A stretch of 64,000 nt of DNA, taken from contig NZ_JABBHF010000002.1 of the NCBI RefSeq assembly GCF_012910715.1, forward strand, positions 191,001 through 255,000, in the 5' to 3' direction. Source of the DNA: Flavivirga algicola. GTDB taxonomy: Bacteria > Bacteroidota > Bacteroidia > Flavobacteriales > Flavobacteriaceae. This document shows positions 58,271 to 61,030 of this stretch, in pieces. The notes beneath the pieces are model-generated. The model was not told the DNA's origin. It was given only the letters and a program-made list of their open reading frames with translations, and ran no database searches. Position numbers and translations under genes: made by a program. Positions within the stretch are counted from its first letter, which is position 1. The number at the start of each line of letters is the position of its first letter.

Positions 58271-59590
58271 ATGAACGACAATCTTATTCTTATAATTTCT
58301 ATAATCATTTCTGCAGCAACTGGCGGTTATTTGGGAATCTTATTCACTAAATTAAAAAGTAAAAGTGAAAAAAGCACTTTAGAAGAGCGCCAGAATCAAA
58401 TGAATTCAACTATTGATGAGTTAAAACAGAACCTTAGCAAAATTGAGCATGAGCGTGAAGAAATAAGAAGAGAAAAAGAATTTTTAAATGCTGAGTTAAC
58501 CAGAAAAAATACTGAATTCGAAAATCTTCAGCAATTAAATTTAAAACGAGATAAAGAGTTAGAAGAACGCCAGGAACAATTACGCAAAGATTTCGAGTTG
58601 TTAGCTACTAAGATATTGGATGAAAAGTCTGAGAAATTCACACTTCAGAACAAAGAGAACATCAAAAATATTTTAAACCCTTTACAAGAAAAAATTCAAG
58701 GTTTTGAGAAAAAAGTAGAAGCATCACAAAAAGAAAGTATTAGCATGCATTCGGCCCTAAAAGAACAATTGTTGGGCCTAAAAGATCTTAATCAACAAAT
58801 GACCAAAGAGGCTACCAATCTTACCAAAGCTTTAAAAGGTGATAGCAAAATGCAAGGTAATTGGGGCGAATTGGTTTTAGAACGCGTTCTTGAAAAATCT
58901 GGATTGGAAAAAGACAGAGAATATTTTGTACAACAAAGTTTCACTTTAGAGAATGGTTCCAGAGTCTTACCCGATGTTGTTTTACACCTTCCAGATAGTA
59001 AAAAAATGATTATCGATTCCAAAGTATCATTAACCGATTATGAACGCTTAGTAAATGCTGAAGATGATGAGAAGCTGCCATTTTTAAAGGCGCACGTTAA
59101 CTCCATTAAAAAGCATGTCGATCAACTTTCTGAAAAAAATTATCAGGATTTATATGATATAGAGTCGCCCGATTTTGTCCTCATGTTTATTCCTATAGAA
59201 CCTGCTTTTGCTGTTGTAGTTAACGAAGATAACGCCATATATAATAAAGCTTTCGAGAAAAACATTGTTATTGTAACACCATCCACGCTACTGGCTACAC
59301 TTCGCACCATAGACACTATGTGGAACAATGAAAAGCAACAACGAAATGCTATTGAAATTGCCAGACAAGCAGGTGCTTTATACGACAAGTTTGAAGGCTT
59401 AGTAAAAGATCTTACAGGTGTTGGTAAAAAAATTGATGCTGCAAAGAATGATTATTCCGCAGCTATGAACAAACTGGTTGATGGTAAAGGTAATTTAGTC
59501 ACAAGCGTTGAAAAACTTAAAAAAATGGGAGCCAAAGCTAAAAAGGCACTACCAGATGCCATTGTTAAACGAGCTGAAGAAGACAGTTAA
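58271..59590 (+). CDS. rmuC: RmuC-type DNA recombination protein
   Basis: A 439-residue protein. One N-terminal membrane helix (IISIIISAATGGYLGILFTK) is followed by a coiled coil from about residue 33 to 175. A nuclease-like domain follows with KGDSKMQGNWGELVLERVLE, VLPDVVLHLPDSKKMIIDSK (Asp and Lys of the PD-(D/E)XK type) and later FVLMFIPIEPAFAVV. It is thought to limit DNA inversions. Normal length. The stop is seven bases before the operator array of the satD operon. Confidence 0.93.
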   Translation: MNDNLILIISIIISAATGGYLGILFTKLKSKSEKSTLEERQNQMNSTIDELKQNLSKIEHEREEIRREKEFLNAELTRKNTEFENLQQLNLKRDKELEERQEQLRKDFELLATKILDEKSEKFTLQNKENIKNILNPLQEKIQGFEKKVEASQKESISMHSALKEQLLGLKDLNQQMTKEATNLTKALKGDSKMQGNWGELVLERVLEKSGLEKDREYFVQQSFTLENGSRVLPDVVLHLPDSKKMIIDSKVSLTDYERLVNAEDDEKLPFLKAHVNSIKKHVDQLSEKNYQDLYDIESPDFVLMFIPIEPAFAVVVNEDNAIYNKAFEKNIVIVTPSTLLATLRTIDTMWNNEKQQRNAIEIARQAGALYDKFEGLVKDLTGVGKKIDAAKNDYSAAMNKLVDGKGNLVTSVEKLKKMGAKAKKALPDAIVKRAEEDS

Positions 59591-59597
59591 TTCATTT

Positions 59598-59701
59598 TAT
59601 CACACTATAACGTGATATTTTAAATTATCACATAATTATGCGATATAATTGTTTATCACATAAAAATGTGATATATTTGTTTATCACATAAAAACGTGAT
59701 A
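59598..59701. promoter_or_regulatory. Array of four palindromic operators at exact 28-bp spacing before satD
   Basis: Four 20-base sites of the form TATCAC-N8-GTGATA start at 59598, 59626, 59654 and 59682, each 28 bases after the last. Site 2 has one changed base (GCGATA). Spacers of 8 bases are T/A-rich and unlike one another. The last site ends one base before the satD ATG. The promoter lies inside the array: site 3 between -33 and -7, site 4 over the predicted start of transcription. This predicts repression by a dimeric regulator, most simply SatD itself. Confidence 0.85.
59649..59679 (+). promoter_or_regulatory. satD promoter
   Basis: A -33 TTG at 59649-59651 and a -7 TATATTTG at 59672-59679 are separated by 20 bases, fitting the Bacteroidota consensus. 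Transcription would start near 59685, about 18 bases before the ATG. Confidence 0.65.
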
Positions 59702-59702
59702 T

Positions 59703-60332
59703 ATGATATCAAATACAATAACTAGTGTTATAACAGGCGATATAATTAAGTCTAGAGGCCAGATTAGCCCTGAAATATGGATAAAAGCATTAAAGGATGC
59801 CTTATCCTATCTAAGTAATGATAAGGTGTACTGGGAAATATATCGAGGAGACAGCTTTCAAATAGAAATTAAAGATATTCACTCTAGCTTTATAGCTGCC
59901 GTGTATATAAAAGCTTGCATAAAATCGATTCATGGTTTGGATGTACGTTTAGCTATTGGTATTGGCAATAAAACCTACGAAGGCGAAAACGTCACAGAAT
60001 CGAATGGTGAAGCATTTATATTTTCTGGAGAAACATTGGAAACTTTAAAAAAAGAGAAACAAAACTTACGTATTAAAACCAATAATAATGAAATTGACGA
60101 AGCATTAAACCTATATTTTAAGTTAGCGCTTATATCTATGGATAGTTGGACCGTAAATTTGGCAGAAATTGTTAAGCTAAGTATAGAAAAGCCGAAAGCA
60201 CTACAAAGTGAATTAGGCGAACTAACTGGCATCAATCAAAATGCAGTAAGTACCAGACAAAAAAGGGCTCACCTAGATGAAATTAAGGAACTGGATCTTA
60301 TGTATAGAAAAAAAATAAATGCTCTAATATGA
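59703..60332 (+). CDS. SatD family protein, possible cyclase-fold regulator with C-terminal helix-turn-helix
   Basis: A 209-residue cytosolic protein of the SatD family. The first 110 residues show a class III nucleotide-cyclase-like pattern: SVITGDIIKSRG (D13 in a metal-site position), IYRGDSFQIEI (G49-D50), VRLAIGIG (82-88), and NGEAFIFSGETLE. The last 50 residues look like a winged or plain helix-turn-helix (LQSELGELTGINQNAVSTRQ). This layout suggests a one-component regulator that binds a nucleotide or other small ligand. The ATG is one base after the fourth operator palindrome, and the stop overlaps the next gene by 4 bases (ATGA). The functional reading is inference. Confidence 0.75.
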   Translation: MISNTITSVITGDIIKSRGQISPEIWIKALKDALSYLSNDKVYWEIYRGDSFQIEIKDIHSSFIAAVYIKACIKSIHGLDVRLAIGIGNKTYEGENVTESNGEAFIFSGETLETLKKEKQNLRIKTNNNEIDEALNLYFKLALISMDSWTVNLAEIVKLSIEKPKALQSELGELTGINQNAVSTRQKRAHLDEIKELDLMYRKKINALI

Positions 60333-61030
60333 TACTACTAAAACTTTTACTAGCTCACTTAATTGGTGATTTTTTTCTACAACCTCAAAAATGGGTCCAT
60401 GAAAAAGAAAAGAAAAAATTAAAATCACCTAAACTGTATTTACACATATTAATTCATATTGCATTATTAATAGTGTTTCTTTGGGATATATCCCTATGGC
60501 CTTACGTAGTAACAATAAGTATTACACATCTTCTAATTGACGGCGCAAAACTTGTTTTACAAAAGAAAAAAACAAAACGATTGTTATTCTTTATAGATCA
60601 ATTACTTCATATCCTGGTAATTTTTGGGTGCTATTTTTTATATTCAAATAATGTATTTAACCCAGAGTCTTTTTTAACCGAAAACAATCTTTTACTACTA
60701 ACTTGCCTAGCATTTTTAACAATTCCAGTCTCTATATTTATGAAAACCATTTTTTTAAAGTGGAATATTTCAGAACTTACTAAAAATAACGAGTCTCTTA
60801 AGGATGCAGGCAAATATATTGGTATTTTAGAGCGTGTTTTAGTGTTTATATTTATAATTTCAGACCACTGGGAAGCTGTTGGTTTTTTAATTACAGCTAA
60901 GTCCGTTTTTAGATTTGGAGATTTAAAAGAATCTAAGGACAGACAGCTTACTGAGTATATTTTAATAGGCACTTTAATTAGTTTTGGAATAGCAATCATC
61001 ACAGGTATTATATACACTGTGCTAATTTAA
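60329..61030 (+). CDS. DUF3307 membrane protein, partner of SatD
   Basis: A 233-residue membrane protein with about six hydrophobic segments. His and Asp residues in conserved places (LLAHLIGDFFLQP near the start, HILIHIAL, ITHLLIDGAKLV, FFIDQLLHIL) suggest a metal-binding site in the membrane, as noted for DUF3307 proteins. Its start overlaps the satD stop by four bases, so the two are translated together. The pair recurs in other bacteria as far as I recall. Function unknown; transport, lipid or hydrolase activity are all open. Confidence 0.82.
   Translation: MILLKLLLAHLIGDFFLQPQKWVHEKEKKKLKSPKLYLHILIHIALLIVFLWDISLWPYVVTISITHLLIDGAKLVLQKKKTKRLLFFIDQLLHILVIFGCYFLYSNNVFNPESFLTENNLLLLTCLAFLTIPVSIFMKTIFLKWNISELTKNNESLKDAGKYIGILERVLVFIFIISDHWEAVGFLITAKSVFRFGDLKESKDRQLTEYILIGTLISFGIAIITGIIYTVLI

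Follow-up and report, generated by a model that had tools for sequence, protein, structure and literature searches.

Omega/ParB of plasmid pSM19035 is a ribbon-helix-helix protein associated with repression and DNA wrapping. At least four contiguous, gapless repeats are needed for the full activity of its array in ParA activation (PMC9499535). The locus described here is like this system in that a small, presumably dimeric DNA-binding protein goes with tandem short sites at a fixed spacing. It is unlike it in its sites; those of Omega/ParB are described in the same text as 7-bp contiguous heptads in mixed orientation that serve plasmid partition (PMC9499535), whereas here 20-bp palindromes recur every 28 bp. 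In addition, the helix-turn-helix (HTH) is here fused to a cyclase-like domain and belongs to a chromosomal gene pair. The protein appears to be related to the SatD family. Streptococcal satD has been linked to acid tolerance (PMC11323703). A literature search, with subscription papers mostly outside its reach, found no published SatD operator, no DNA-binding role for the SatD family, no function for DUF3307, and no tandem operators with a 28-bp period.

A satD-like gene pair and its upstream array

The window, which is the whole 64,000-nucleotide stretch of Flavivirga algicola DNA that was analysed, contains a gap between the stop of rmuC (59590) and the start of a gene for a 209-amino-acid protein (59703). 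This gap is filled by four 20-bp palindromes (Table 1). They are exactly 28 bp apart and the array finishes at 59701, one base ahead of the ATG, both as the first-pass annotation of this DNA had claimed. The annotation had also counted four copies of TATCAC-N8-GTGATA. All four starts are correct and sites 1, 3, and 4 are exact, but site 2 is not, as it reads GCGATA in its second arm. Because the spacer and the linker are both 8 bases long, half-sites recur every 14 bp throughout and are alternately inverted.

Table 1. Features of the satD-like locus, in window coordinates.
Feature	Position	Strand	Remarks
Operator site 1	59598..59617	.	TATCAC-N8-GTGATA; putative
Operator site 2	59626..59645	.	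TATCAC-N8-GCGATA, one mismatch; upstream of the -33 element; putative
-33 element TTG	59649..59651	+	Predicted sigma-A promoter; 20 bases ahead of the -7 box
Operator site 3	59654..59673	.	Fills the -33/-7 spacer and overlaps the first two bases of the -7 box; putative
-7 box TATATTTG	59672..59679	+	TAnnTTTG consensus; puts +1 near 59684
Operator site 4	59682..59701	.	Over the predicted transcription start and almost the whole predicted 19-nt leader; putative
satD-like gene, 209 aa	59703..60332	+	Putative N-terminal nucleotide-cyclase-like palm (D13, D50 conserved), C-terminal HTH
HTH recognition-helix region, residues 178-189 (NQNAVSTRQKRA)	60234..60269	+	Residue 184 at 60252-60254, best operator covariation
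DUF3307 membrane protein gene (PF11750)	60329..61030	+	Overlaps the satD stop by 4 bases; second gene of the pair

The array appears to be unique in its genome. A whole-genome search for TATCAC-N8-GTGATA, which had been proposed earlier, found three exact sites in 5.02 Mb, and all three are in this array. The 11 one-mismatch sites elsewhere are background-like (15 matches in total, with 15 for a control pattern as well). When the genome was searched for pairs of sites in 28-bp register, with a tolerance of three mismatches, this array alone was hit (three overlapping matches; control, 0). Lone sites that carry one or two mismatches form a common background in both the window and the genome. 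Six sites with up to two mismatches are present in the window against a shuffle mean of 2.7, which is not striking, as 7 of 100 shuffles reach six.

A promoter had been proposed to run through the array, and its TTG, 20-base gap, and -7 box were found just as described (Table 1). The flavobacterial -7 box (TAnnTTTG) is placed at -12 to -5 in one study (PMC9723704). Transcription would therefore start near the first bases of site 4, with site 3 inside the -33/-7 spacer. A sigma-70 scan with E. coli hexamers gave nothing on the + strand. A hairpin in the leader RNA was considered as a candidate and rejected, as the fold of the leader plus the gene start was no better than shuffles (z -0.26).

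The 209-residue protein has no match to Pfam SatD (PF16264) at E <= 0.1 or 0.01. A search of its own genome with PF16264 also found no match, and the 14 control genomes were likewise empty, so that this search was uninformative. The protein is called SatD-like because 35 of the 45 relatives in its alignment match PF16264 at E <= 0.01 (best 1.3e-10), even though it does not match the model itself. The same holds for the HTH, as several HTH Pfam models match aligned relatives and none matches the protein of the window. An HTH in relatives together with presumed sites in the gene's own promoter is what is found in HTH autorepressors with multiple operators. Searches of NCBIfam and PHROGs gave sub-threshold matches only, and the weak matches in PDB sequence searches were HMG boxes, HTH proteins, and a cyclase at E 1.8-1.9. 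The predicted fold of the N-domain appears to resemble nucleotide-cyclase palms in an AlphaFold2 model built on 12 close sequences (pLDDT 78; the five models ranged from 47 to 78). D13 is conserved in 216 and D50 in 224 of the 226 alignment rows. Of 299 genomes sampled from the family, 162 have the satD-like gene, and so do 85 of 296 sampled from the phylum when nearer relatives are counted. Some SatD-like proteins (L227, L230, L231, L233-L235, and L242) have an HTH that diverges (DSL[IS]RAHW type) and lack a clear array.

The second gene was assigned to DUF3307 through a Pfam match at 5.9e-30. It comes after satD, in the same orientation, in 137 of 139 loci, with a median gap of about 0 bases, and rmuC was found upstream of satD in 52 of the 139 only. 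In DUF3307, H10, D14, H39, H67, D71, and H94 are invariant in all 136 relatives extracted (136/136), which suggests a putative metal site in this membrane protein. The rmuC product (window 58271-59590) matches the PADLOC model RTasRmuC at 1.6e-240 and looks like the product of an ordinary chromosomal rmuC, so this model may be naming host neighbours. Neither SatD nor DUF3307 has a PADLOC match.

Geometry of the array among relatives

Named genomes supplied 11 loci of relatives, mostly Flavivirga. Further loci came from the 299 family genomes, where those of 130 of the 162 genomes with the gene were examined. One row that was the window again (L016) and then two duplicates (L017 and L019) were removed. 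A second set came from order and phylum searches. Of its 99 loci, 12 duplicated proteins that were already in use or one another, so that 87 distinct loci remained, some of them in the same family.

When the 200 bp upstream of each of 141 loci was tested for periodicity, the single best period was 28 in 121 loci and 29 in 11. After shuffling, 28 ranked alone at the top in 4 of 141 copies, and no period was prominent. A free fit over 81 combinations of inner gap and linker gave an inner gap of 8 with a linker of 8 in 109 of the 139 loci of the first set, 8 with 9 in 11, one other combination, one tie, and 17 loci without a good array. The corresponding numbers for the 87 loci of the second set were 30 (8/8), 20 (8/9), and 37 without a good array. 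Thus, well-fitted arrays in both sets have an inner gap of 8 and a linker of 8 or 9, barring the one exception and the one tie.

Adjacent units agree at 0.80-1.0 in positions 1-5 and 16-20, at 0.65 and 0.68 in the innermost arm positions (6 and 15), and at 0.36-0.68 in spacer and linker. The units have therefore diverged while the outer arms and the distances were kept. The earlier claim that spacing is under selection is strongly supported, since arm letters and spacers have changed among relatives and the geometry has not. Fixed spacing of neighbours under selection is also what is found in arrays read by proteins that assemble on DNA. The palindromes had further been expected to be conserved upstream of related satD genes, and their absence to speak against the proposal. 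This expectation holds for the geometry and not for the letters, and needs to be reworded.

Residue 183 of SatD tracks the period best. Serine occurs with 28 in 140 of 152 cases and asparagine or histidine with 29 in 19 of 20, an association confounded by kinship. Among 86 nearest pairs there are only 3 with different periods, and one of the 3 is concordant with residue 183, so that this residue is no more than a candidate determinant of 28 versus 29.

Arm letters and residue 184

The arm letters differ by clade. TATCAC is found around Flavivirga, and other clades have TATTCC, TATCGT, TATCTG, TATTAG, TATAAG, TATATG, TATTAC, and more. Covariation with SatD was explored in 125 of the 139 loci, after 14 with a score under 28 or with arms not beginning with TAT were removed. 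Residue 184, which is in the putative recognition helix, ranks first of 199 SatD columns for half-site positions 4, 5, and 6 and also for the three jointly (mutual information 2.08; next column, 1.44). Glutamine at 184 goes with TATAAG, TATTAG, TATTAA, or TATTAT in 50/50 loci, lysine with TATTCC or TATGCC in 19/23, glutamate with TATCGT, TATCGG, or TATCTG in 18/20, and threonine with TATCAC in 9/11 and with ATG twice. Threonine, serine, and methionine accompany CAC or CAT arms. The glutamine and glutamate rules hold in two or more HTH backgrounds. For lysine, CC arms occur in 18 of 18 loci of one background and in 1 of 5 of another, where the rest have TATTAC and TATAAC.

Kinship among the loci was considered in several ways. 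For pairs that are 30-40% identical in the N-domain, those sharing residue 184 have the same inner dinucleotide in 82% of cases and the others in 14%. The effect is present in every identity bin up to 80%. Above 80% it is absent, as all 15 pairs with different residues at 184 have the same dinucleotide, and so do 43 of the 48 with identical residues. Nearest relatives were also compared in 62 pairs without overlap. A change of residue-184 class came with a change of inner dinucleotide in 12 of 14 pairs, and the dinucleotide changed in 8 of the other 48 (Fisher p 3.8e-6), with classes that were fixed after the table had been seen. By plain letter change in these pairs, residue 184 is fifth (p 9e-4), behind 177, 180, 181, and 155; the eight best columns are all within residues 152-187. 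An N-domain tree shows a minimum of 32 changes at residue 184 and of 22 in the arm class. A tree test with independent pairs on well-supported branches had no power, as the loci are related and only 1-3 such pairs were available.

The rule was also applied to the second set, in which 52 of the 87 loci have a clear array and 47 of these bear a residue known from the first set. Residue 184 gives the exact dinucleotide in 23/47 (shuffle mean 9.1, maximum 18). With less than 60% N-domain identity to the first set the result is 16/33 (shuffle mean 9.1, maximum 17), and below 45% the rule fails (2/9; shuffle mean 1.4, maximum 3). A lenient score, which accepts any dinucleotide already seen with the residue and was set after the strict one, gives 38/47 (shuffle mean 13.5, maximum 25). 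This covariation between recognition helix and operator supports the earlier suggestion that SatD is the binder and, from sequence comparison, points to SatD as the protein that reads the array.

Five arrays upstream of satD mix two operator types, TATTCC and TATCAC (L020, L021, L022, L024, and L026). The mixed arrays are in 28-bp register except for the far sites of L020 and L024, which are one base off, and L026 has a gap that was not scored. They are perhaps specificity switches in progress.

Interpretation and relation to known systems

It is likely that the array is an autoregulatory operator and that SatD represses its own promoter by side-by-side assembly; binding, repression, and cooperativity are what we infer here. 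The first-pass reading of this locus is largely supported, and it extends further than the window by itself could show. A SatD dimer would sit on each 20-bp palindrome through its C-terminal HTH, with residue 184 reading the inner half-site bases. Dimers on adjacent sites would touch across the fixed 8-bp linker and the protein would be lined up along the DNA. Each site would take up 2.67 helical turns, and after three sites (84 bp, or about 8 turns of 10.5 bp each) the protein would be back on the same face. Occupation of site 3 in the -33/-7 spacer and of site 4 at the predicted transcription start would shut off the satD-DUF3307 promoter, and sites 1 and 2 would add cooperativity and make the response steeper. 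The cyclase-like N-domain would probably tune DNA binding through a nucleotide, a presumed ligand that it either binds or produces. DUF3307 would be the membrane partner.

The 28-bp period could have a different cause, in which SatD binds the sites independently and the number comes from sigma-A geometry (TTTG, 20 bases, and TAnnTTTG giving 28), with the units being interchangeable -7/-33 modules. In 114 loci with 28-bp arrays, 73 of them having a TAnnTTTG match, 86 of the 112 matches share one array phase, though this bias is partly built in because nearly every site ends in ATA. G is enriched at unit position 26 (0.31, against 0.01-0.12 at other linker positions), and the -7 box of the window follows site 3 in the same way. 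The phase of TAnnTTTG supports, across relatives, the earlier proposal of a promoter threaded in register through the array. However, register is also kept where no promoter element needs it. In 78 loci with a -7 box, 26 of the 27 site pairs that are wholly upstream of the presumed -33 element (up to 60 bp apart) are spaced 28, 29, 56, or 58 bp. Arrays with a 29-bp period, 31 of the 172 clear ones, also count against this explanation, which is considered unlikely. Since promoter geometry does not require the upstream pairs to be in register, contact between dimers is favoured for the period, and the preferred cause of the 28 bp is an array set by this contact into which the promoter has been fitted. 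The cooperative oligomerisation that was suggested at the outset would fit these upstream pairs as well.

Three other readings are less probable still. Because it is we who infer SatD binding and autoregulation, another regulator might occupy the array, with satD being merely the regulated gene. Such a regulator would need to switch in step with SatD, as the arm letters track SatD's own recognition helix through the many changes counted on the tree, and the array accompanies satD even where rmuC was not found upstream; this is very unlikely. The number of sites is variable, as expected from gain and loss of units; it ranges from 2 to 6 in 132 of 139 loci by a loose scan that also picks up stray sites. 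The period might therefore be left over from tandem duplication, with spacing free of selection. That is highly improbable when the outer arms and the spacing have been preserved in spite of divergence in spacers and linkers, and when nearly all well-fitted arrays have the same inner gap and one of two linkers. Finally, the palindromes might act as RNA hairpins, and site 4 is indeed within the predicted leader and able to pair. Three of the four sites are outside the transcript from the predicted promoter, which makes this hardly credible.

A broader reading of the repressor array is possible, although doubtful. SatD-DUF3307 may be an undescribed signalling module, in which a cyclase-fold transcription factor forms a filament on an array whose fixed geometry extends across much of the phylum. 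A nucleotide that the palm domain makes or binds would control this filament, and DUF3307, as a membrane protein with invariant histidines and aspartates, would be the output. Its drifting letters would be read mainly by one residue, and the mixed arrays would be half-done switches. If this were true, the family would hold a large natural set of orthogonal repressor-operator pairs.

With its fixed geometry and drifting letters, the family allows the requirements of protein-DNA reading to be told apart from those of packing between dimers. It also provides many naturally occurring repressor-operator pairs that differ in specificity. An uncharacterised gene is given a testable regulatory role, and direct tests are possible for the binder, for the residue that reads, and for the operator.

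The predicted fold of the N-domain and its two conserved aspartates (D13 and D50) may correspond to those of class III nucleotide cyclases, GGDEF proteins, and Cas10 palms. Unlike these, the SatD palm is predicted to be fused to a C-terminal HTH, and its cyclase activity is putative. With regard to the covariation, MerR-family factors reportedly covary with their sites, as in Prot-DNA-Korr. The kind of inference is the same, correlated residues and bases, in a family other than SatD. Panoptes (optSE) is also a two-gene operon that pairs a palm-fold protein having two aspartates with a membrane protein (PMC12657218). Its aspartates are active-site residues, and an equivalent catalytic role for the conserved D13 and D50 of SatD is putative. 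OptE is described in the same text as an S-2TM-beta effector (PMC12657218). The second gene here encodes DUF3307 and no such effector is present in the operon, nor was there a PADLOC match (2023 library, which may lack Panoptes). SatD adds an HTH and an operator array. A repressor that acts on several operators of its own promoter is of a kind already known; what is new here is the family, a geometry that is widely fixed while the letters drift, and the cyclase-like domain.
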